The notes under the pieces: model-generated
What the model was told of the DNA's origin: nothing
The model's input: only the letters and a program-made list of their open reading frames with translations
Databases searched by the model: none
Translations under genes and position numbers: made by a program
DNA from: Allostella vacuolata
GTDB taxonomy: Bacteria; Pseudomonadota; Alphaproteobacteria; ATCC43930; Allostellaceae
Direction of reading: 5' to 3'
Length of the DNA: 64,000 nt
NCBI GenBank assembly: GCA_006739055.1
Contig: AP019702.1
Location: forward strand, 186,001 to 250,000
Shown here: piece after piece, positions 2,170 through 52,792 of the stretch
Position numbering within the stretch: position 1 is the stretch's first letter
Layout: each line of letters starts with the position of its first letter

Positions 2170-2736
2170 TCAGAGAGGCGGCGGGCAGGGCGGCAGCAGC
2201 CGCTGCACCTGGTCGCGCAGGCGGCTCAGCGAGCGGTCGCGCAGGCCGAGCTCGTCGAGGTGGCGAACGGTGTTGTCGAGATACTCGATGCAGGGGCCGC
2301 GGTCGCCATGGGCGGCGGCGATGATGGCCGCGGTCTCCGCCACCGCCAGCCGGCCGCTGTAGAAGCGATGGCGGCGATCGACGACGAAGGCCAGGCAGGG
2401 CAGTACGCCGTCTGCGGTACGCACCGGGAGGACGCGCGGGTGGTACTCGTTGTTGAGCATCTCGCGCTCCCAGAGCGCGGCCTTGACCGCCTCCAGCTGC
2501 TCGATTGGAATGCGCAGCGCCAGCCCCTTGCAGGAGCCGCCGCGGTCGAGCCCCAGCACCAGGCCGGGCCGTTCGTCGGTGCCGCGATACTGGGTCGAAT
2601 AGATGCAGAAGCGCCGGTGATAGCCGAGCAGCAGCCCGGGGCGGACCTCGACCGGGGCGAAGCCCGGGTTCCAGATCAGCGAGCCGTAGCCGAAGACCCA
2701 GAAGTGGCCCGAAGCGCAAGGATGGAGGGACAGCAT
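2170..2736 (-). CDS. chaC: ChaC-type gamma-glutamylcyclotransferase
   Basis: Predicted glutathione-specific gamma-glutamylcyclotransferase, releasing 5-oxoproline and Cys-Gly from glutathione in the cytosol. The diagnostic N-terminal signature VFGYGSLIWNPGF lies about ten residues after the chosen ATG, followed by the GYHRRFCIYS stretch typical of ChaC. An ATG 39 bp upstream (2775) is in frame but would add a non-conserved extension, so 2736 is preferred, giving 188 aa. The gene is divergent from the DUF2125 gene at 2814, and the 77 bp between them must carry both promoters. Confidence 0.9.
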   Translation of the reverse strand: MLSLHPCASGHFWVFGYGSLIWNPGFAPVEVRPGLLLGYHRRFCIYSTQYRGTDERPGLVLGLDRGGSCKGLALRIPIEQLEAVKAALWEREMLNNEYHPRVLPVRTADGVLPCLAFVVDRRHRFYSGRLAVAETAAIIAAAHGDRGPCIEYLDNTVRHLDELGLRDRSLSRLRDQVQRLLPPCPPPL

Positions 2737-2813: not shown

Positions 2814-3851
2814 ATGATCCGTCGTTTTCGTATCGTCCTGCTGGCCGGCCTCTGCGCCCTCCTGGCGGTGGCCGCGGGCGGCTATTCCTGGTTCTGGCAT
2901 CGGGTGGCGGCCGAGATCGTGGCCGGCGTGCCGGCCTGGACCGCCGGGATGGCAGCCCAGGGTATCCGCGTCACGCACGGGCCGCTCGCCGTCTCCGGCT
3001 TTCCCTTCCAGTTCCGACTCGAAGTGCCGCAGCCGGTCTTCGCCCGGGATCGGGCCTACCCGGCCGCGACCTGGTCGGGCGACCGGCTGCTTGCCATCGC
3101 CCGGCCCTGGCGCCTGCGCGAATGGGCGCTGGAGGTGCCGCGGCCGAGCCGGCTGGATCTGGTCGCCGGCCCCGACCGGTGGCAGGCGACGGTCGCGCGG
3201 GTGGATGGCGCCCTGCGCGTCGATCCGCGTGACGGGGAACTGCTGCTGGACGCGCGGGGCATTGCCGGGGTCGATGCCGACCCGCTGTCGATCGCCGCGC
3301 TCCGCCTGCGGCTTGCGGGCGATCCCGGGCGGCCGCGGGCGACCGCGGTGGCGCTCGCGGCCGACTCGGTCCGCCTGCCGGCCCGGGCCCGGGCGCCGCT
3401 CGGCCGGGAGATCGCCCGGGTTTCGGCCGAGGGCGCGGTGGTCGAGTCCATTCCCAGCCTGCCGCCTGCCGCCGCGCTCGAATCCTGGCGCCAGGCCGGC
3501 GGTACGATCGACGTCGAACGGTTCCGGGTCGTCTGGGGGCAGGCGGAACTCGATGGCGCGGTGACCGTGGCGCTCGACCGCGAACTGCAGCCGGTGGCGG
3601 CCGGCACGGCGGCGCTGGCCGGCCATGATGCGGTGCTCGACGCGCTGGTGGAGTCGGGGTCGCTCGGCCGGATGGAGGCGTTCGGCGCCCGGGCGATCCT
3701 GGGTGCCGTGGCGGCGCCGACCGCCGGCGGAGGGGCCCCGGTCATCAGCCTTCAGTTCTCGGTGCAGGACGGCCGGATGCTTGCGGGCCCGATCGGCGGA
3801 TCGACGTTCCGGCTCCTCTCCCTGCCCCGCGTGGAATGGCCGGAACGCTGA
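2814..3851 (+). CDS. DUF2125 family envelope protein
   Basis: A 345-aa protein with one N-terminal membrane anchor or uncleaved signal (about residues 5-25), followed by a beta-rich soluble region. The stretch GPLAVSGFPFQFRLEV near residue 60 is characteristic of the alphaproteobacterial DUF2125 family, whose function is unknown but which resembles periplasmic AsmA-like proteins in topology. A GAAGGGG tract lies immediately before the ATG. No operon partner: the HU gene begins 129 bp downstream after a hairpin. Confidence 0.8.
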   Translation: MIRRFRIVLLAGLCALLAVAAGGYSWFWHRVAAEIVAGVPAWTAGMAAQGIRVTHGPLAVSGFPFQFRLEVPQPVFARDRAYPAATWSGDRLLAIARPWRLREWALEVPRPSRLDLVAGPDRWQATVARVDGALRVDPRDGELLLDARGIAGVDADPLSIAALRLRLAGDPGRPRATAVALAADSVRLPARARAPLGREIARVSAEGAVVESIPSLPPAAALESWRQAGGTIDVERFRVVWGQAELDGAVTVALDRELQPVAAGTAALAGHDAVLDALVESGSLGRMEAFGARAILGAVAAPTAGGGAPVISLQFSVQDGRMLAGPIGGSTFRLLSLPRVEWPER

Positions 3852-3980: not shown

Positions 3981-4277
3981 ATGGCGGCTGCTGAGACCAC
4001 TCCGACGGTGTCGCTGCGCCAGTTGGCGGCGACCCTCGCCGAGAAGCACGAGATGCCGAAGAAGCAGGCGAGCGCCGTGCTCGAGGATCTCGTGGGCTTG
4101 GTGACGACGCATCTGAAGCAGGGCGACAAGGTCCGGATCACCGGGCTCGGCATCCTTCAGGTCCGCAAGCGTCCGGCACGCCAGGGTCGCAATCCCGCCA
4201 CCGGTGAACCGATCGAGATCAAGGCGTCTTCCAAGGTCGCTTTCCGCGCCTCCAAGGATCTGAAGGACGCGGTCTGA
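3981..4277 (+). CDS. HU-family DNA-binding protein
   Basis: A 98-aa basic histone-like protein that bends and compacts DNA. The family core is visible: SLRQLAATLAEKH, the helical dimerisation region, VRITGLGILQVRKRPAR (the GxG beta turn and start of the DNA-binding arm), the RNPATGEPI arm tip motif, and the final KVAFRASKDLKDAV helix. The ATG at 3981 is chosen because AGAGGAG lies 9-15 bp upstream; an upstream in-frame start at 3876 would add a non-homologous leader. A strong hairpin follows the stop. Confidence 0.9.
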   Translation: MAAAETTPTVSLRQLAATLAEKHEMPKKQASAVLEDLVGLVTTHLKQGDKVRITGLGILQVRKRPARQGRNPATGEPIEIKASSKVAFRASKDLKDAV

Positions 4278-4328
4278 TCGGTCGGGATCGCCCGGGCGCG
4301 CAGGCGCCGGGGCGAGAAGCTGAATATC

Positions 4329-4368
4329 GGCAACGCCGCGCTGTCTGGAGGGACAGCGCGGCGTTGCC
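4329..4368. terminator. strong hairpin between convergent HU and tyrA genes
   Basis: A perfect 17-bp stem (GGCAACGCCGCGCTGTC and its complement) with a 6-base loop TGGAGG. It lies in the 114-bp gap between two convergent stops, so it can serve both transcripts. There is no U-tract, as is common in GC-rich alphaproteobacteria. Confidence 0.75.
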
Positions 4369-4391
4369 ATGTCCGGCCTGGGCTTCGGGCC

Positions 4392-5330
4392 TCATGCCGC
4401 CTGCGCGGGCGGCGGCACCATGCGGCCCTCGGCCTCGATGATGCCGCGTCGGATGGCGCGGGTTCGGGTGAAGAGCTCGTGGAGCTTCTCGCCCTCGCCC
4501 CAGCGGATGGCGCGCTGGAGGTAGGCGAGGTCCTCGGAGAAGCGTCCGAGCATTTCGAGGACGGCCTCGCGGTTGTCGAGGAAGATGTCGCGCCACATGA
4601 CGGGGTCGGAGGCGGCGATGCGGGTGAAGTCGCGGAAGCCGCCGGCGGAGTACTTGATGACCTCGGAGCGGAGCGTCTCCTCGAGGTCGGTGGCGGTGCC
4701 GACGATGGTATAGGCGATGAGGTGGGGCAGGTGGGAGGTGATGGCCAGCACCTTGTCGTGGTGGGCGGGGTCCATCTCGACGACCTGGGACCCGGCCGCC
4801 TCCCAGAAGGCGCGCAGGCGCCGGACCGGCTCGGGCGGGGCGCCGGGCAGGGGGGTGAGGATGCACCAGCGGCCCTGGAAGAGCTCGGCGAAGCCGGCCT
4901 CGGGGCCGGAATGCTCGGTGCCGGCGATGGGATGGCCGGGGATGAAGTGGACGCCGTCGGGGACGTTGGGGCCGACGTCGCGGACCACGGCCTGCTTGAC
5001 CGAGCCGACGTCGGACAGGATGGTGCCGGGCGCTAGCACCGGGGCGATGGCGGCGGACAGGTCGGCATAGGTGCCGACGGGGGTGCAGAGGAGGACGAGG
5101 TCGGCGCCGGCGGCGGCCTCGGCCGGGTCCTCGTAGGCATGGTCGACGATGCCGAGGCGGAGTGCCGCCTCGCGGGTGGCCTCGCGCCGGGTGCTGCAGA
5201 CGATCTCCTCGGCCAGCCCCTCGCGCCGCGCAACCCGCGCCAGCGACGAGCCGATCAGGCCGATCCCGATGAGCGCAAGCCGGCGGAAGGGCGGCCGGGC
5301 GACGGGTCGTATGGGAAGCGGGTGGTCCAT
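4392..5330 (-). CDS. tyrA: prephenate/arogenate dehydrogenase, downstream tandem copy
   Basis: NAD(P)-dependent oxidative decarboxylation of prephenate or arogenate, towards tyrosine. Rossmann motif GIGLIGSSLAR is near the N-terminus and the substrate-binding GHPIAGTEHSG segment is intact. The central 284 residues are identical to the neighbouring copy at 5550-6422. The ends differ: this copy has a proline-rich N-terminal extension beginning MDHPLPIRPVARPP and a C-terminal tail EGRMVPPPAQAA. It lies 219 bp downstream of the first copy, behind a hairpin, so it may be transcribed separately or only partly from the operon. No frameshift or stop; it looks functional. Confidence 0.88.
   Translation of the reverse strand: MDHPLPIRPVARPPFRRLALIGIGLIGSSLARVARREGLAEEIVCSTRREATREAALRLGIVDHAYEDPAEAAAGADLVLLCTPVGTYADLSAAIAPVLAPGTILSDVGSVKQAVVRDVGPNVPDGVHFIPGHPIAGTEHSGPEAGFAELFQGRWCILTPLPGAPPEPVRRLRAFWEAAGSQVVEMDPAHHDKVLAITSHLPHLIAYTIVGTATDLEETLRSEVIKYSAGGFRDFTRIAASDPVMWRDIFLDNREAVLEMLGRFSEDLAYLQRAIRWGEGEKLHELFTRTRAIRRGIIEAEGRMVPPPAQAA
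4432..5288. repeat. 857-bp direct repeat, copy 1 (tyrA)
   Basis: Matches 5563-6419 with 7 mismatches and no indels (about 99.2 % identity), at a constant offset of 1131 bp. Both ends are sharp: sequence outside the boundaries is unrelated. All seven differences are silent in the tyrA frame. Confidence 0.97.
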
Positions 5331-5377
5331 GATGCGCTCCGGAATTGGGCCAGAAAGCCCCCGGAGGCCATGTCCTG

Positions 5378-5414
5378 AAACGAAACGCCGCCGGGTGGCG
5401 GCGGCTTCGGTTTC
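5378..5414 (-). terminator. hairpin between the two tyrA copies
   Basis: On the minus strand CGCCGCC, a 4-base loop ACCC and GGCGGCG form a perfect 7-bp stem. Flanking GAAACCGAA and TTCGTTTC extend it with a bulge, and the sequence reads into TTTCGTTTC. This is a plausible intrinsic terminator after tyrA copy 2, or an attenuator in front of copy 1. Confidence 0.5.
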
Positions 5415-5443
5415 GTCAGATCGTGATCGAACCCGCGCCGCCC

Positions 5444-5506
5444 CTATGGGAGGGCGCGTAGTAGAGGCCGCTTATGGGCAGGTTCGTGCTCACGGGGGCG
5501 GACCAT
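5444..5506 (-). CDS. possible 20-codon leader peptide upstream of tyrA copy 1
   Basis: A short frame beginning ATG at 5506 and ending TAG at 5444, lying 44 bp past tyrA copy 2 and 30 bp before the hairpin at 5414-5378. It reads MVRPREHEPAHKRPLLRALP. A leader peptide followed by a hairpin is the layout of ribosome-mediated attenuation, but the peptide has no Tyr, Phe or Trp, so tyrosine control is not supported. No good ribosome binding site was seen. This is tentative. Confidence 0.15.
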   Translation of the reverse strand: MVRPREHEPAHKRPLLRALP

Positions 5507-5549
5507 AGGCAGGCCGCCCCGTGCCGTCAACGGGGACGATCGATCCGCC

Positions 5550-6422
5550 CTATGCCTGCTTCGCCTCGATGATGCCGCGGCGGATGGCGCGGGTTCGGGT
5601 GAAGAGCTCGTGGAGCTTCTCGCCCTCGCCCCAGCGGATGGCGCGCTGGAGGTAGGCGAGGTCCTCGGAGAAGCGTCCGAGCATTTCGAGGACGGCCTCG
5701 CGGTTGTCGAGGAAGATGTCGCGCCACATGACGGGGTCGGAGGCGGCGATGCGGGTGAAGTCGCGGAAGCCGCCGGCGGAGTACTTGATGACCTCGGAGC
5801 GGAGCGTCTCCTCGAGGTCGGTGGCGGTGCCGACGATGGTGTAGGCGATGAGGTGGGGCAGGTGGGAGGTGATGGCCAGCACCTTGTCGTGGTGGGCGGG
5901 GTCCATCTCGACGACCTGGGACCCGGCCGCCTCCCAGAAGGCGCGCAGGCGCCGGACCGGCTCGGGCGGGGCGCCGGGCAGGGGGGTGAGGATGCACCAG
6001 CGGCCCTGGAAGAGCTCGGCGAAGCCGGCCTCGGGGCCGGAATGCTCGGTGCCGGCGATGGGATGGCCGGGGATGAAGTGGACGCCGTCGGGAACGTTGG
6101 GTCCGACGTCGCGGACCACGGCCTGCTTGACCGAGCCGACGTCGGACAGGATGGTGCCGGGCGCCAGCACCGGGGCGATGGCGGCGGACAGGTCGGCATA
6201 GGTGCCGACGGGGGTGCAGAGGAGGACGAGGTCGGCGCCGGCGGCGGCCTCGGCCGGGTCCTCGTAGGCATGGTCGACGATGCCGAGGCGGAGCGCCGCC
6301 TCGCGGGTGGCCTCGCGCCGGGTGCTGCAGACGATCTCCTCGGCCAGCCCCTCGCGCCGCGCCACCCGCGCCAGCGACGAGCCGATCAGGCCGATCCCGA
6401 TGAGCGCAAGCCGGCGGAACAT
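5550..6422 (-). CDS. tyrA: prephenate/arogenate dehydrogenase, operon copy
   Basis: 290 aa, same catalytic core as the copy at 4392-5330, with intact GIGLIGSSLAR nucleotide-binding and GHPIAGTEHSG motifs. This is probably the ancestral copy: it starts 7 bp after the hisC stop, in the chorismate mutase-hisC-tyrA order seen in many alphaproteobacteria. The ATG at 6422 is preferred; a GTG one codon upstream (6425) is also possible. The repeat with copy 1 begins at codon 2. The C-terminus ends IIEAKQA, unlike the other copy. Confidence 0.92.
   Translation of the reverse strand: MFRRLALIGIGLIGSSLARVARREGLAEEIVCSTRREATREAALRLGIVDHAYEDPAEAAAGADLVLLCTPVGTYADLSAAIAPVLAPGTILSDVGSVKQAVVRDVGPNVPDGVHFIPGHPIAGTEHSGPEAGFAELFQGRWCILTPLPGAPPEPVRRLRAFWEAAGSQVVEMDPAHHDKVLAITSHLPHLIAYTIVGTATDLEETLRSEVIKYSAGGFRDFTRIAASDPVMWRDIFLDNREAVLEMLGRFSEDLAYLQRAIRWGEGEKLHELFTRTRAIRRGIIEAKQA
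5563..6419. repeat. 857-bp direct repeat, copy 2 (tyrA)
   Basis: Partner of the repeat at 4432-5288. It spans codon 2 to a few codons from the end of the operon tyrA. The 274 bp between the repeats (5289-5562) is not repeated elsewhere in the window. Confidence 0.97.
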
Positions 6423-6429
6423 CACCGGC

Positions 6430-7566
6430 TCAGCCCTGGCCGCCGACGAAGTCGGCCAGTGCCGATTGGACCGCGCGCATCTCCTCCTCCAGGCCGATGC
6501 CGATGCGCAGGCACTCCGGCAGGCCGTAGCCCGCCATGCCGCGGACCAGGATGCCGCGCTGCTTGAGGAAGGCGAGCGCCGCCGCGGCGTCGCGCCCCGC
6601 GCCGTCCGGGAATCGCACCAGCACGAAGTTGGCGACGCTCGGATAGACGGTGAGGCCGAGCCGGGCGAGCTCGTCGCCGAGCCAGCTGCGCCAGCGGGTC
6701 GCGGTCTCGCGCGAAGTGGCGACGAAGGCCTCGTCCTCCATCGCGGCCACCCCGGCTTCCTGGGTGGCGAGCGTCACGTTGAAGGGCCCGCGCACCCGGT
6801 TGATCACGTCGACGACCGCGGGCGGGCCGTAGAGCCAGCCGAGCCGGAGGCCGGCCAGGGCGTAGATCTTGGAGAAGGTGCGGGTCATCACGACGTTGTC
6901 GGCCGCGTCGACCAGCTCCACGCCCGCGTCGTAGTCCGCTTCCTCGACATACTCGGCATAGGCCGAATCGAGCACCAGCAGGACGTTGCGCGGCAGGCCG
7001 GCATGCAGCCGCCGCATTTCGTCCTGGGGCAGGTAGCTGCCGGTCGGGTTGTTGGGATTGGCGAGGAAGAGGATGCGCGTGCGCTCGGTCACCCGCGCCA
7101 GCAGGGCGTCGACATCGGTCTTCAGCCCCGTCTCGGGGGCGGCCACCGGGATCGCCCCGACCGACTTCGCGGCGATCGGGTACATCATGAAGCCGTACTG
7201 GCTGTAGAGGATCTCGTCGCCGATCCCGGCATAGCACTTGGTGAGGAGCTGCAGCAGCTCGTCCGAGCCGGCGCCGCAGACGATGCGCGCGGGGTCGAGC
7301 CCGTTCACCCGGCCGATCGCCTGGCGCAGCCGCTCCGAATGGCCGTCGGGATAGCGATGGATCTCGCCCGCGGTCGCCGCATAGGCGGCGCGCGCCTTGG
7401 GGCTCGGCCCGGCGGTGTTCTCGTTCGAGGCCAGCCGGAACACCCGATTGACGCCGGGGGCCTTGTGGTCGCCGCCGACATAGGGGGCGATCTCCAGGAT
7501 GCCGGGCTTCGGCTCGGGCGCGGATGCCGGGGTAGCGGTCTCGGCGATCGGGGACAGCGTGGTCAT
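6430..7566 (-). CDS. hisC: histidinol-phosphate / aromatic aminotransferase
   Basis: A 378-aa fold-type I PLP aminotransferase of the HisC family. Landmarks: the LASNENTAGPSP substrate loop, ANPNNPTGSYL, LDSAYAEY (PLP-contacting Asp and Tyr), and TFSKIYALAGLRLGW with the PLP-binding lysine. Position between chorismate mutase and tyrA argues that it transaminates prephenate or aromatic 2-oxo acids as well as, or instead of, histidinol phosphate. The ATG at 7566 has GAGGATT upstream; an ATG at 7578 is an alternative start. Confidence 0.9.
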   Translation of the reverse strand: MTTLSPIAETATPASAPEPKPGILEIAPYVGGDHKAPGVNRVFRLASNENTAGPSPKARAAYAATAGEIHRYPDGHSERLRQAIGRVNGLDPARIVCGAGSDELLQLLTKCYAGIGDEILYSQYGFMMYPIAAKSVGAIPVAAPETGLKTDVDALLARVTERTRILFLANPNNPTGSYLPQDEMRRLHAGLPRNVLLVLDSAYAEYVEEADYDAGVELVDAADNVVMTRTFSKIYALAGLRLGWLYGPPAVVDVINRVRGPFNVTLATQEAGVAAMEDEAFVATSRETATRWRSWLGDELARLGLTVYPSVANFVLVRFPDGAGRDAAAALAFLKQRGILVRGMAGYGLPECLRIGIGLEEEMRAVQSALADFVGGQG

Positions 7567-7594
7567 GGGAATCCTCATTCGAGGCCCGCGGGGC

Positions 7595-8455
7595 CTAGCC
7601 GGCGCGGGTCTCGGTCAGCGGGACGGCGTAGGCGCCCAGCACCGACAACCCGCGCAGGCGGCCGGCGGCGCGCCGCCGGAGGTCGCCGAGGCGAGGGTCG
7701 TCGTCGGTGATGTAGTCGTCGATCTCAATCAGGCAGGTGCTTCCGGCCCGGCCGGCGATGCCGCGCAGGGGCAGCCCCGTTTCCGCGGCAAGGCCGCCGA
7801 TCCAGCCGTCCGCATCGCCCGGGGCCGCCGGCTCGAGGGCGAGATAGCTGCGGTCCAGGCCGGAGGCCTCGGTCGGCAGGCGGGCGATCGTGACGGCGTC
7901 GAGCCCCTCGCCGCGGGCGCTGCCGGGGCTGGCGAAGGGCAGGCGGCTGATGATCCGCGGCCGGTCGGCGGCATCGGACAGCAGGCGCGGCCACCAGTCG
8001 CCGCCGGCCCCGTCGGCCGGGGTCGGCAGCACGCCGACCGTGGCCCGGCCGTCCTCGACCGCGGCGATCACCGCTTCGGCGGTCGGATGCGCTTCCAACG
8101 GGGTCTCTCCGCCGAAATGGTCGCGCGCCAGGTCCCACAGGCCGGGCCGGCCGCAGGCCACCTGGACGGCGGCCGAGAACGGTCCCTGGAGGCGGGTGAA
8201 TTCGCACATGATCTCGCGCCACAGGCCGACCATGGTGGCGAGGCCGAAGGGGCCGTGGTGGCGGGCGGCGAGCCGGCGCATCACCTGGGCCTCGCGGCCC
8301 GGCCGGAACGCCCCGGCGCTGCCGCTGGCGCGCTTGGCCGCCGCGATGGCGCCGACGATGGTCGCGCGCTCGTGGATGAGGTCGAGCAGCCCGTCATCGA
8401 TCGCGTCGATGCGCTGGCGAAGGTCGTCGAGACTGGGGGCGGCCACGGAGGTCAT
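7595..8455 (-). CDS. chorismate mutase with degenerate C-terminal region
   Basis: 286 aa. Residues about 8-95 form an AroQ-type helical chorismate mutase domain: LDDLRQRIDAIDDGLLDLI, the R-x2-I-V helix, and the FRPGREAQVMRRLA segment carrying the catalytic Arg/Lys positions. It converts chorismate to prephenate, feeding the neighbouring tyrA. The remaining ~190 residues look like the extra region found in alphaproteobacterial chorismate mutases next to hisC. It lacks the TxRF motif of prephenate dehydratase, so a P-protein activity is not supported. The start is uncertain: no clear ribosome binding site precedes ATG 8455, and the frame stays open upstream through another ATG near 8541. Confidence 0.82.
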   Translation of the reverse strand: MTSVAAPSLDDLRQRIDAIDDGLLDLIHERATIVGAIAAAKRASGSAGAFRPGREAQVMRRLAARHHGPFGLATMVGLWREIMCEFTRLQGPFSAAVQVACGRPGLWDLARDHFGGETPLEAHPTAEAVIAAVEDGRATVGVLPTPADGAGGDWWPRLLSDAADRPRIISRLPFASPGSARGEGLDAVTIARLPTEASGLDRSYLALEPAAPGDADGWIGGLAAETGLPLRGIAGRAGSTCLIEIDDYITDDDPRLGDLRRRAAGRLRGLSVLGAYAVPLTETRAG

Positions 8456-8577
8456 CGAGGCAAGGCGCTGGGAGAGGCGAAAAAGGGGGTTACTGATAGT
8501 CCGCGGCCGGGGCGAAAGCAAAGAGAACATCGACATTTGCGGCTGCTTGCGCCGCCCGATCCCGGACCCTGCCGCCG

Positions 8578-9333
8578 CTAGGGCGCAGGGTCCCGGCCGC
8601 GCCTGGCGCCGACCGGGCGCATCGGTGCCGGCGCCGCCAGCCGCTCGCGACGGCCGGCCTTGGCCCGCGCCGGGGTGGCGGCATAGATCTGCTTGGTCGC
8701 CTCGATCATCACCAGCCCGGCAAAGCGCGGGAACCAGCGCTCGCCGACCTGTTCCCAGGCCAGGGCTGCGCGCTGCAGCATCCGCCAGCGGAACGGCGGC
8801 ACGAACAGGGCCTGGGTCGTCTGCACCGGGGTGAACAGGCAGTCGCGCAGCAGGCGCGACAGTTGGCCCGCGGAATAGGGGTGGCCGTGGCCGAACGGGG
8901 TCATGTCGCGCCGGGCCCACAGGCCGCGCCGGTTGGGGACGACGATCACCATCCGCCCGCCGGCGGCCAGCACCCGCCATGCCTCGCGCAGCATCGGCCG
9001 CACCTGCTCGGTGCCCTCGAGCGCGTGGACGATCAGGATGCGGTCGAAGAACTGGGCCGGAAATGGCAACTCGCCGTCCTCGCCGATGGTGGCGCGGTTG
9101 GGCCCGTCCGGCGGCCAGGCGAGCACTCCCTGCCCGGCCGGCATGCAGGCGACGACGCGGTCCGCCTCCTCCGCCAGCCGGCCGAGGAAGGGGGTCGCAT
9201 AGCCCAGCCCCAGGACGCTGAGCCCGGCGACCGAGGGCCAGAGCTGCCGCATGCGCCGGTTGACCATGCGCCGGGCCACCTGGCCGAGCGGGCTGCGGTA
9301 GAAGTCGCGGAGGTCGACGACATCGGCGTGCAT
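8578..9333 (-). CDS. class I SAM-dependent methyltransferase
   Basis: 251 aa. A Rossmann-like methyltransferase (Methyltransf_11 type): motif I is SVLGLGYATPFLG, a degenerate GxGxG, and the post-motif region includes LPFPAQFFDRILIVHALEG and LREAWRVLAAGGRMVIVVPN. The C-terminus (after about residue 215) is basic. A methyltransferase of this kind commonly neighbours gloB and the chorismate mutase-hisC-tyrA genes in alphaproteobacteria. Substrate unknown. It lies 17 bp downstream of the small secreted protein and leads the aromatic block. Confidence 0.8.
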   Translation of the reverse strand: MHADVVDLRDFYRSPLGQVARRMVNRRMRQLWPSVAGLSVLGLGYATPFLGRLAEEADRVVACMPAGQGVLAWPPDGPNRATIGEDGELPFPAQFFDRILIVHALEGTEQVRPMLREAWRVLAAGGRMVIVVPNRRGLWARRDMTPFGHGHPYSAGQLSRLLRDCLFTPVQTTQALFVPPFRWRMLQRAALAWEQVGERWFPRFAGLVMIEATKQIYAATPARAKAGRRERLAAPAPMRPVGARRGRDPAP

Positions 9334-9350
9334 CGCCCGTCAGATGTACG

Positions 9351-9617
9351 TCAGCGGCCGGGCGGGGGGAAGCGCTGCCCGGCGATTTCCGCGGGCGGCG
9401 TGCCGATCGCTGTGACCGGCAGCGGCGGGGGCGTGCCGTGTGGCGCCGGCCCGGGACCGGGCGCCGGCGCATGCACCGGCATCCGGACGACGCGGCCGTC
9501 GGGGTGAAGTTCCAGGCGGCCGACGATGCTCCGCTCGCCCGGCCCCGGATCTGAAGCCAGGGCCGAAGGGGCGGCCGTCACGAGGGCGAGGAGAAGAAGT
9601 GCGGGCGGGTATCTCAC
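9351..9617 (-). CDS. small secreted proline-rich protein, unknown function
   Basis: 88 aa starting at GTG 9617 (no strong ribosome binding site). It has a convincing signal peptide: RYPPALLLLALVTAAPSALA, cleaved before SDPG. The mature part is about 68 residues, rich in Pro and Gly (APAPGPGPAPHGTPPP). It is not recognised. It ends 17 bp before the methyltransferase, is divergent from gloB, and could lead that operon. The signal peptide is the main support. Confidence 0.45.
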   Translation of the reverse strand: MRYPPALLLLALVTAAPSALASDPGPGERSIVGRLELHPDGRVVRMPVHAPAPGPGPAPHGTPPPLPVTAIGTPPAEIAGQRFPPPGR

Positions 9618-9750
9618 GCAAGGAGAACGCGCCGCGGCCGGCCGGCATTCCTGCGGCCCGGCCGGAATCTCCGGCGCATGCGATGCCGGTTGGCGCAAAC
9701 GGGCGGAGCGGAATATGGTGGCGCCTCGCCGCAACACCCCGGGGCACGCC

Positions 9751-10515
9751 ATGCTGGATATCCACCGCATTCCGGTGCTGCAGGACAACTATGTCTGGCT
9801 GGTCCATGACGCCGCCACTTCGGCGACGGCCGTGGTCGACCCGGCGGTGGCCGAGCCGGTCGAGGCGGCCTTGCGCCAGAAGGGCTGGCGCCTGACCCAT
9901 ATCCTCAACACCCACCATCACGGCGACCATACCGGTGCGAACCTGGCGTTGAAGGCGGCCCATGGCTGCACGATCGTCGGCCCGGCGGCCGATCGCGCGC
10001 GCATCCCCGGCATCGACGTGACGGTGGCCGATGGCGACCGGTACCGGCTGGGCGAGGCCGAGGCCGAGGTGTTCGACGTGCCGGGCCACACCCGCGGCCA
10101 TATCGCCTACTGGTTCGCCGACGACCAGGCGCTCTTCTGCGGCGACACCCTCTTCGCCATGGGTTGCGGCCGCCTGTTCGAGGGAACGCCCGCCCAGATG
10201 TGGCGCTCGCTCGGCAAGCTGAAGGGTCTGCCTGCCGCGACGCGGGTCTTCTGCGCCCATGAATATACCCAGTCGAACGCGCGCTTCGCCCTCACGGTCG
10301 ATGGCGGCAACCGGGCCCTGGTCGAGCGCGCGGCGGAGGTCGACGCGCTGCGCGCCCGCGGCCAGCCGACCGTGCCGTCGACCATCGGGCTCGAACGCGC
10401 GACCAACCCCTTCCTGCGTGCCGACGACCCGGCGGTGGCGGCCGCGGTCGGCCTGTCGGGGCACAACCCGGTCGAGGTCTTCGCCGAGGTTCGCCGGCGC
10501 AAGGATTCCTTCTGA
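9751..10515 (+). CDS. gloB: hydroxyacylglutathione hydrolase (glyoxalase II)
   Basis: 254 aa; hydrolyses S-lactoylglutathione to lactate and glutathione in the methylglyoxal detoxification pathway. The metallo-beta-lactamase motif THHHGDHTG (residues about 53-61), the later metal ligands in VPGHTRGH and FCGDTLF, and the glutathione-binding FCAHEYTQSNARFA are all present. The ATG at 9751 matches the family start (MLDIHRIPVLQDNYVW). Divergent from the methyltransferase operon; a glutathione S-transferase follows 34 bp downstream. Confidence 0.95.
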   Translation: MLDIHRIPVLQDNYVWLVHDAATSATAVVDPAVAEPVEAALRQKGWRLTHILNTHHHGDHTGANLALKAAHGCTIVGPAADRARIPGIDVTVADGDRYRLGEAEAEVFDVPGHTRGHIAYWFADDQALFCGDTLFAMGCGRLFEGTPAQMWRSLGKLKGLPAATRVFCAHEYTQSNARFALTVDGGNRALVERAAEVDALRARGQPTVPSTIGLERATNPFLRADDPAVAAAVGLSGHNPVEVFAEVRRRKDSF

Positions 10516-22632: not shown

Positions 22633-22743
22633 CCCGCCGTCCCCGACTGTCCGACCGCCTCGCTCCTACATAGCACGCATCGGCCGGGCCGCCTCAGGTC
22701 CGGATCGGCCCGAATAGAGAAAAGGCGCTGCCCGGCGGTCATG

Positions 22744-22843
22744 GCGTCCCTCGACCAGGCCCGGGATGAGGGGGAATCTCGTTCTGCACAAACGCTCGTG
22801 GAGAACGGCAGAAATCCTCATCCCGAGCCTGGTCGAGGGACGC
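22744..22843. repeat. intergenic palindromic element, copy A
   Basis: Two 28-bp arms (22744-22771 and 22816-22843) are inverted complements with one mismatch, around a 44-bp centre. The arms begin GCGTCCCTCGACC and the inner end reads GGGATGAGG. The second arm runs into CTTTTG, so the folded RNA could act as a terminator downstream of nrdJ. A related copy lies at 52792-52890 with similar arms and centre length. The rest of 22633-22937 shows no gene. Confidence 0.85.
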
Positions 22844-22937
22844 TTTTGCCGATGTCCAGCGCGCCGTTCGCGTCAGCCTCCGCCGGTTTCATCCTCGGCG
22901 GGGGGCAACCGGTCGCAACTCATGCCGACTGCCGGCG

Positions 22938-51729: not shown

Positions 51730-52470
51730 GTGGAGATCCTGGTCGTCAATCCCAACACCACCCGATCGATGACGGACAAGATCGGCCGCGCGGCCGAGCG
51801 GGCGGCCGCCCCCGGCACCCGCATCCGCGCCGTCCAGCCGGCGATGGGGCCGGCCTCGATCGAGGGCTTCTACGACGAGGCCTTCTCGGTCCCGGGCCTG
51901 CTGGGAGAGATCGCCCGCGGCGAGGCGGACGGGGTCGCCGGCCACATCATCGCCTGCTTCGACGACACCGGGCTCGATGCCGCGCGCTCGCTGGCGGCGG
52001 CCCCGGTGGTCGGCATCGGCGAGGCGGCGTTCCACCTCGCCGCCCTGCTCGCCCACCGCTTCGCCGTGGTCACCACCCTGTCGCGCTCGATCGCGGCGAT
52101 CGAGGGCAACCTCGCGCGCTACGGCCTGGCGGCGCGCTGCGCCGGCGTGCGCGCGGCCGAGGTGCCGGTGCTGGCGCTGGAGGACCGCGACGCCGGCGCG
52201 GTCGGCCGCATCGCGGCCGAGATCGAGCGGGCCAAGGCCGACGACCGGGCCGACGCCATCGTGCTCGGCTGCGCCGGCATGGCCGACCTGGCGGGCGAGC
52301 TGGCGGCCGCCCACGGCATCCCGGTCATCGACGGGGTCGCGTCCGCCGTCGTCCTGGTCGAGGGGCTGGCCCGCCTCGGCCTGCGCACCGCCAAGTCCGG
52401 CCCCTACGCCCCGCCCTTGCCCAAGCGCTATGACGGCCTGTTCGCGCCCTGGGCGCCGGGGGGCGGGTGA
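51730..52470 (+). CDS. Asp/Glu/hydantoin racemase family protein, allantoin racemase candidate
   Basis: 246 aa cofactor-independent racemase. VVNPNTTRSMTDKIG at the N-terminus and the two catalytic cysteines, in IIACFDDTGLDAARSLA and in LGCAGMADL, are intact. Hydantoin racemase (HyuE) and allantoin racemase (HpxA) share this fold; beside a PuuE allantoinase the latter is attractive. GTG 51730 is preferred, with AAGGAG 8 bp upstream; GTG 51721 is an alternative. Confidence 0.87.
   Translation: MEILVVNPNTTRSMTDKIGRAAERAAAPGTRIRAVQPAMGPASIEGFYDEAFSVPGLLGEIARGEADGVAGHIIACFDDTGLDAARSLAAAPVVGIGEAAFHLAALLAHRFAVVTTLSRSIAAIEGNLARYGLAARCAGVRAAEVPVLALEDRDAGAVGRIAAEIERAKADDRADAIVLGCAGMADLAGELAAAHGIPVIDGVASAVVLVEGLARLGLRTAKSGPYAPPLPKRYDGLFAPWAPGGG
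52191..52232 (+). repeat. donor copy of a 42-bp inverted repeat (inside the intact racemase gene)
   Basis: Encodes AGAVGRIAAEIERA in the intact racemase. The exact reverse complement occurs at 52542-52583 inside the racemase pseudogene, 310 bp away. Weaker similarity extends several bases beyond each end. Confidence 0.95.
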
Positions 52471-52792
52471 TGGCGGCGCCGTGTATCCTGCTGGTCAATC
52501 CGAACACCAGCGCCTCGGTCACCGGGCTGCTGGCGGCCGAGGCCCGCTCGATCTCGGCCGCGATGCGGCCGACCGCGCCGGCGGCGCGGTCTTCGCCGGC
52601 ATCGGCCGCGAGCTGGCCGGGCGCGTCGCCGTGCCGCTGTTCGACGGGGTGGGCTGCGCGGTGGATGCAGCCCTGGCCGCCATCGCCGCCAGGTCGGCGC
52701 ACCCGCAGCCGCGCGATCCGGCCAAGCCCTATCCCGGCCTGCCGGACGGGCTGGCGCGCCTGCTGGCGGGCGGGCTGGCCCACCAGTCGTAG
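52470..52792 (+). pseudogene. decayed second Asp/Glu/hydantoin racemase gene
   Basis: Starts at ATG 52470 overlapping the intact racemase stop (TGATG) and encodes a good family N-terminus (CILLVNPNTSASVTGLLAAEAR). After about 27 codons comes a 42-bp segment in the wrong orientation. The C-terminus of a racemase then resumes in another frame: GIGRELAGRVAVPLFDGVG, then LAAIAARSAHPQPRDPAKP, ending at TAG 52790-52792. About 150 codons of the middle, including both catalytic cysteines, are missing. The stop overlaps the next palindromic element. Confidence 0.8.
52542..52583 (-). repeat. inverted 42-bp copy inside the racemase pseudogene
   Basis: Exact reverse complement of 52191-52232, with no mismatch. 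Read on the minus strand it encodes the same peptide as the intact gene. This points to an inverted template switch between the two adjacent paralogues. Confidence 0.95.

Follow-up and report, generated by a model that had tools for sequence, protein, structure and literature searches.

In Sinorhizobium meliloti, the trpL transcript begins at the ATG of its leader open reading frame (ORF), a published precedent for a leaderless start (PMC7298713). In Corynebacterium glutamicum, the aroR–aroF operon is, according to a review (PMC11802643), unaffected by tyrosine availability, and for aroF–tyrA of Escherichia coli attenuation sensing tRNA-Tyr was proposed by Camakaris in 1980 (cited in PMC2659441 and PMC8632094). 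Prokaryotic genes reported to have evolved in concert over long periods include tuf, the amo genes, and, in Rhodospirillales, dxs (PMC6053082). The present analysis concerns a tandem pair of tyrA genes and the spacer between them in a 64-kb stretch of DNA comprising positions 186,001–250,000 of the single 5,834,761-bp contig of Stella vacuolata ATCC 43931 (AP019702); this stretch is called the window, and all coordinates refer to it. The genus is now Allostella (Rhodospirillales) in the NCBI taxonomy, and the older name Stella is kept here. The pair is not mentioned in the published genome announcement of three Stella strains. The analysis points, with good confidence, to an old tyrA duplication whose copies have been homogenised by recombination, with tyrA1 presumably expressed from an operon and tyrA2 lying behind its own putative promoter and a predicted tyrosine leader-peptide attenuator.

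On the minus strand the genes are arranged in the order chorismate mutase, hisC-type aminotransferase, tyrA1, a 219-nt spacer, and tyrA2. tyrA1 (5550–6422, minus strand, 290 aa), the closing gene of the chorismate mutase–hisC–tyrA run, codes for a prephenate/arogenate dehydrogenase scoring 494.4 bits against NF005694 (cut-off 409), and tyrA2 (4392–5330, minus strand, 312 aa), which has the same core, scores 492.1 bits against the same model. PF02153 and PF20463 are found in both products, which, judged from these family matches, are TyrA-family dehydrogenases; tyrA1, the copy used in the structure search, also matches the solved structure 4wji. Searched against the whole genome (E 0.001), the protein matches at these two sites and nowhere else, and the pair is the sole direct-repeat family reported in the window (minimum length 60 nt; shown as a 300-nt family).

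Direct comparison of the copies bears out the preliminary description of the repeat in all its particulars, that is, two 857-bp copies with seven silent differences, beginning at codon 2 and flanked by dissimilar ends. One copy lies in tyrA1 (5563–6419, minus strand) and the other in tyrA2 (4432–5288, minus strand), offset by 1,131 bp, and they differ at exactly seven positions (4449, 4710, 4962, 4971, 5034, 5163, and 5232), all of them third codon positions at which the change is silent. The repeat starts at codon 2 of the operon copy tyrA1 (ATG at 6422–6420) and at codon 15 of tyrA2, whose core is thus preceded by 14 extra residues. Outside the repeat the termini of the two genes are unrelated; at the C-terminal end tyrA2 has the 12 residues EGRMVPPPAQAA, where tyrA1 has KQA.

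The seven silent differences, taken alone, would fit a recent tandem duplication in the source strain that has not yet diverged, as had been proposed at first. This is refuted by the comparison with sister genomes, since all three complete Stella genomes (S. vacuolata, Stella sp. ATCC 35155, and S. humosa) contain a tandem pair separated by a spacer of similar kind, and a recent origin is now highly improbable: homologous spacers, leaders, and tyrA2 termini occur in three species whose tyrA genes differ at 79–98 of 861 nt. The spacer and the ends of tyrA2 can be aligned across the three species and, being common to them, indicate that the tandem duplication is older than the divergence of the sequenced Stella species. 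The finding expected to speak against a recent event, old and diverged paralogues in relatives, thus holds in part: the paralogues are old, but they are not diverged. A search with the TyrA protein in 61 genomes found a match in 53, with two strong matches only in the three complete Stella genomes; in four further genomes the second match reached at most 25.3 bits. From a named genome collection, 80 of the 95 relatives detected were retained for comparison of the locus, and a single one of these 80 loci, that of Stella sp. ATCC 35155, has two tyrA matches.

The surroundings of the pair suggest which copy is the older resident. A convergent match to DUF2125 lies downstream of tyrA in 18 of the 79 other loci, at a distance which, over 19 values including the Stella locus, ranges from 13 to 3,387 nt, and a match to HU occurs at the tyrA locus only in Stella among the 80 loci. 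In each of the three Stella genomes, tyrA1 is separated from the DUF2125 gene (2814–3851, plus strand, in the window, assigned by family match) by the spacer, tyrA2, and an HU-family gene. Because these three elements intervene, we infer that tyrA1 is the native copy.

Sequence relationships between the copies argue for their continued homogenisation. Within one genome the cores differ at 9 (S. vacuolata), 14 (S. humosa), or 6 (Stella sp. ATCC 35155) of 861 nt, far fewer than between species. Synonymous divergence (dS, Nei–Gojobori count) between the copies of one genome is 0.032, 0.055, and 0.014, respectively, and 0.23–0.31 between species; for hisC, chorismate mutase, methyltransferase, and HU, compared between S. 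vacuolata and each of the other two, it is 0.26–0.56. Out of 137 variable sites, 111 (43, 37, 28, and 3) group the copies by genome, one groups them by position, and 25 do neither, many of the latter being changes in a single copy. A tree built on a codon alignment with nine outgroups likewise pairs the copies by genome with a support of 100 for each of the three pairs, while a tree uniting the tyrA1 genes on one side and the tyrA2 genes on the other is rejected (cost of 410 log-likelihood units, AU p 1.7e-44). Support is lower for the nine outgroups (29–84) and for the grouping of Stella sp. ATCC 35155 with S. humosa (64), which leaves the three pairs untouched.

Clustering of copies by genome would also be produced by independent tandem duplications in each Stella species, yet the spacer, with its promoter-like site, leader, and terminator, and the ends of tyrA2 are homologous between species, and core position 859, at the edge of the repeat, separates tyrA1 from tyrA2 in all three, which makes such parallel events very improbable. 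Paralogues within a genome are closer to each other than orthologues between species, the relation by which concerted evolution is recognised, and this supports homogenisation of the gene bodies by recombination between the copies, most simply by gene conversion. An ongoing conversion had been envisaged in the preliminary description and is upheld here by the finding that the copies in each genome are far closer to each other than to any elsewhere. In Stella sp. ATCC 35155 all six differences are confined to the final 31 nt of the core, which is where they should lie if conversion fails close to the border of the homologous block. Direct tandem repeats are prone to recombine, and the same pattern could arise by repeated unequal crossing-over passing through three copies and back to two; the data from three genomes fit both routes alike. 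Unequal crossing-over needs a three-copy intermediate each time and has to end with two copies and one leader, so that conversion is the simpler route and crossing-over, though conceivable, is rather unlikely to account for the pattern.

Short-read polishing could make near-identical copies partly alike. An assembly or polishing artefact is nevertheless most unlikely, as judged from the published assembly descriptions: two copies are present in all three assemblies, made with Canu (S. humosa) and Unicycler (the other two) from nanopore reads averaging 3.3–4.9 kb plus Illumina reads, neither the spacer nor the ends are repeated, and some differences between the copies remain. The fourth Stella genome, fragmented into 570 contigs, contains only residues 1–43 of tyrA, at the end of a contig that stops 129 nt into the gene, as at an unresolved repeat; this fits an assembly halting inside the repeat, without proving it. 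It also counts against the proposed history, as this genome gives just a 43-residue piece of tyrA, and neither the leader nor an orthologue of the HU-family gene (best match of 40% identity) was found there.

The 219-nt spacer, on which the preliminary description is silent, carries a candidate tyrosine attenuator for tyrA2 in all three species. A promoter scan detected the promoter-like site TTGACG-17-TATGGT (5502–5530, minus strand), the only such match in 4200–9800, where shuffled sequences gave 0.2 expected; TTGACG and the 17-nt spacing are kept in all three species. It is followed by a leader ORF of 25 codons with a GTG start (5416–5493, minus strand), recognised in the sequences of the three species, in which the predicted peptides read VSTNLPISGLYYAPSHRGGAGSITI in S. 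vacuolata and VKTNLPISGLYYAPSHRGGAGSITI and VTTNRPIAGLYYAASHRGGQGSITI in the others, with V as the initiator. The start codon lies 8 nt downstream of the −10 box in S. vacuolata and 7 nt in both S. humosa and Stella sp. ATCC 35155, a distance from which the transcript would be expected to begin on the start codon or immediately ahead of it, making the leader near-leaderless. Codons 11 and 12 (5458–5463, minus strand) are tandem tyrosine codons, TAC TAC in S. vacuolata and TAT TAC in the two other species; Tyr-Tyr is therefore kept in all three with a synonymous TAC/TAT change. An ORF with codons for the end product thus precedes tyrA2 in each species, as in a leader-peptide attenuator, its translation being predicted. 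There are two short ORFs with Tyr-Tyr in the window, the leader followed by a hairpin of −20.1 kcal/mol and the other by one of −10.3 kcal/mol.

Folding predictions for the 126-nt leader region give a free energy 5.2 standard deviations below that of shuffled sequences (z −5.2). Hairpin 1:2 (5435–5457, minus strand) is predicted directly 3′ of the tyrosine codons, alongside alternative pairings, and owing to this position its 5′ arm would be covered by a stalled ribosome. Segment 2, GGCGGC (5437–5442, minus strand), starts 21 nt past the first base of the first tyrosine codon in all three species. Segment 3, GCCGCCGCC (5397–5405, minus strand), can pair with segment 2 to give an antiterminator (−26.3 kcal/mol, z −3.0) or with segment 4 to give a terminator (5377–5412, minus strand; −23.2 kcal/mol, z −4.6, with one of 200 shuffles as stable) followed by a T-rich, interrupted tail. 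The mutually exclusive 2:3 and 3:4 structures are both predicted, and their segments are present in all three species. A further hairpin over the Shine–Dalgarno sequence of tyrA2 (5337–5366, minus strand) is likewise predicted in the three species; by itself it is not significant (z −1.5, 16 of 200 shuffles as stable).

Several results weigh against attenuation. The fragment 5440–5470, which holds hairpin 1:2 in truncated form, is no more stable than its shuffles (z +0.5), and the consensus structure pairs the early leader in a different way. In an equilibrium fold with the ribosome-covered part masked, pairs resembling 2:3 form in part and the top of the terminator is still drawn, so that the model needs folding during transcription. 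No compensatory changes were found in the 38 pairs of the three-sequence alignment from one genus, in which variation is too small for their lack to tell against the fold. With 93.0% of cells conserved, the consensus structure does far better than slid versions of it (34–49%) but no better than shuffled columns (92.4%, with 162 of 500 shuffles as high). Finally, the T tract is interrupted, two tyrosine codons are few, and the attenuator is a prediction from three leaders of a single genus.

The small number of tyrosine codons, the lack of compensatory changes, and the availability of just three sequences would also suit a simpler spacer, composed of a terminator and a constitutive promoter, in which the Tyr-Tyr peptide is incidental and tyrosine is not sensed. 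This is improbable: Tyr-Tyr is kept despite a synonymous change, its 21-nt distance to segment 2 is fixed, trpE in these genomes has a near-leaderless start as well, and the downstream gene serves tyrosine synthesis. We regard the tyrosine attenuator before tyrA2 as a well-founded prediction.

The trpE arrangement came from examining the regions upstream of trpE, pheA, and the gene of class II 3-deoxy-D-arabino-heptulosonate 7-phosphate (DAHP) synthase in the three Stella genomes for leaders with aromatic residues side by side. A trpE leader with Trp-Trp, ending in TGLWWPAF, is present in all three (loci L171, L172, and L173) and is followed in each by a terminator-like hairpin. It is preceded by TTGACA, and its ATG lies 8, 9, and 8 nt past the −10 position in S. 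vacuolata, Stella sp. ATCC 35155, and S. humosa, respectively; at the fixed 17-nt spacing the −10 hexamers are poor (GTTTGA, CTTACA, and GTTTGA), so the promoter is only a guess, and the leader is possibly leaderless like trpL of S. meliloti. No leader with adjacent aromatic residues was found before the DAHP synthase gene in the three genomes or before pheA in Stella sp. ATCC 35155; in S. vacuolata and S. humosa there was only a short ORF about 700 nt from pheA, which is not taken as a leader. The Stella genomes appear to use a similar plan at two genes, with Trp-Trp before the tryptophan gene and Tyr-Tyr before the tyrosine gene.

A covariance model of the three Stella leaders, R1, was used to look for relatives of the tyrA2 leader. 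A scan of 385 genomes of the class, run with strict filters that lose weak matches, gave three matched genomes, those of S. vacuolata, Stella sp. ATCC 35155, and, weakly, the alphaproteobacterium G134 (E 0.0049), with S. humosa and the fourth Stella genome not among them, and it revealed no convincing leader outside Stella. When five genomes were scanned with E up to 10, the S. humosa leader was recovered and none appeared in the fourth Stella genome; besides the three leaders and the G134 match there were 13 weak matches, of which the three inspected by eye lie in or beside coding sequence. Among 45 loci E was below 0.1 only for the three Stella leaders, and a degenerate pattern for YYAxSHRG matched exactly in 3 of 43 genomes of the order, namely the three complete Stella genomes and not the fourth. 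A scan of the window against Rfam 15 at the gathering score gave no matches. The G134 match was rejected as a tyrA leader, as its peptide, MIVPARATRWYFSATS, precedes an acetyltransferase-like gene (named by eye). It is an attenuator-like element in its own right (C56:87500–92500, locus 2400–2512, minus strand), with a near-leaderless peptide containing Trp-Tyr-Phe in a row, followed by hairpins and a terminator.

On the preferred explanation, the gene bodies are homogenised while the flanks of each copy evolve independently, and tyrA1 would be expressed with the chorismate mutase–hisC–tyrA run and tyrA2 transcribed from its own promoter through the leader-peptide attenuator. The sequences themselves show the duplication, its age, the homogenisation, and the conserved layout of the leader; use of the promoter, leader translation, stalling, termination, the response to tyrosine, and selection for both copies are deduced from them. 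At low levels of charged tRNA-Tyr, the ribosome would stall at the tandem tyrosine codons and block hairpin 1:2, segment 2 would then pair with segment 3, the terminator would not form, and tyrA2 would be transcribed; when tyrosine is plentiful, 1:2 and 3:4 would form and transcription would stop. The terminator may also end transcripts arriving from tyrA1. A different regulation of the second copy through its new ends had been suggested beforehand; the different regulation is retained, as a prediction, and is assigned to the attenuator of the 219-nt spacer and not to the ends of the protein.

The likely use of the arrangement is to provide two regulatory inputs to one enzyme, the operon acting via tyrA1 and a response to tyrosine starvation via tyrA2. 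Identical genes in tandem would normally be expected either to collapse through recombination or to drift apart; the Stella pair has survived in three species at least, its gene bodies almost the same and its control regions different. Both copies being kept though direct repeats delete easily suggests that selection maintains both. We lean, with less assurance than for the overall history, towards the view that a near-leaderless attenuator sensing tyrosine alone drives one of two TyrA genes matched by recombination, giving one enzyme sequence two inputs. If this is true, the protein is selected to stay identical and its two genes to be controlled separately, both within a tandem pair otherwise prone to deletion. 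The Stella locus is also a small natural test case for why bacteria retain pairs of this kind.

Upstream of tyrA1 lie the hisC-type aminotransferase gene (6430–7578, minus strand; TIGR01141 above the cut-off) and the gene of a type II chorismate mutase (7595–8455, minus strand; PF01817). The HU/IHF-family gene (3981–4277, plus strand; PF00216), convergent with tyrA2, scores below the NCBIfam cut-offs for HU and IHF and adjoins tyrA2 in all three complete genomes. Between these convergent genes there is a GC-rich inverted repeat (4331–4367), with a counterpart, identified by eye, in each of the three genomes, which is probably a terminator shared by both. Two other inverted-repeat pairs were noted in the window, one at 52180–52594 (61-nt arms, 93% complementary, 293 nt apart) and the other at 22725–22862 (65-nt arms, 74% complementary, 8 nt apart).

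The literature under open licence, which omits most subscription journals, yielded no demonstrated tyrosine-specific leader-peptide attenuator, and its titles yielded nothing relevant on gene conversion of tyrA; the tyrA2 leader is a candidate for the former. The cases of concerted evolution reported in PMC6053082 resemble the Stella pair in that paralogues of one genome are closer to each other than to orthologues; the 26 genes in its two tables do not include tyrA, but the paper's minimum of five species would leave out a case known from three. The Stella pair differs from those cases in being tandem, known in one genus, and equipped in one copy with a candidate attenuator. As regards the leader, the E. 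coli aroF–tyrA proposal has in common with Stella a tyrosine-dependent attenuation of an operon with tyrA, but it is a hypothesis, the citing accounts, in the parts dealing with it, give no leader peptide, and the organism and gene arrangement are different. The aroR leader of C. glutamicum (Phe-Tyr-Phe) is similar in having a tyrosine codon and preceding a gene of the aromatic pathway, which is, however, aroF, coding for DAHP synthase, and not tyrA (PMC11802643). The cysS leader uORFC-8-2 of Rhodobacterales, likewise alphaproteobacterial and predicted, combines a terminator with a tandem pair of codons, but these are cysteine codons and the gene is cysS (PMC8632094). Most similar in layout is trpLE(G) of S. 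meliloti, with a short leader ORF at the 5′ end, tandem codons for the end product, competing structures, and a terminator (PMC7298713); the Stella leader differs from it in its Tyr-Tyr codons, in preceding tyrA, and in that one of two genes with the same core lies behind it, under regulation that is predicted.

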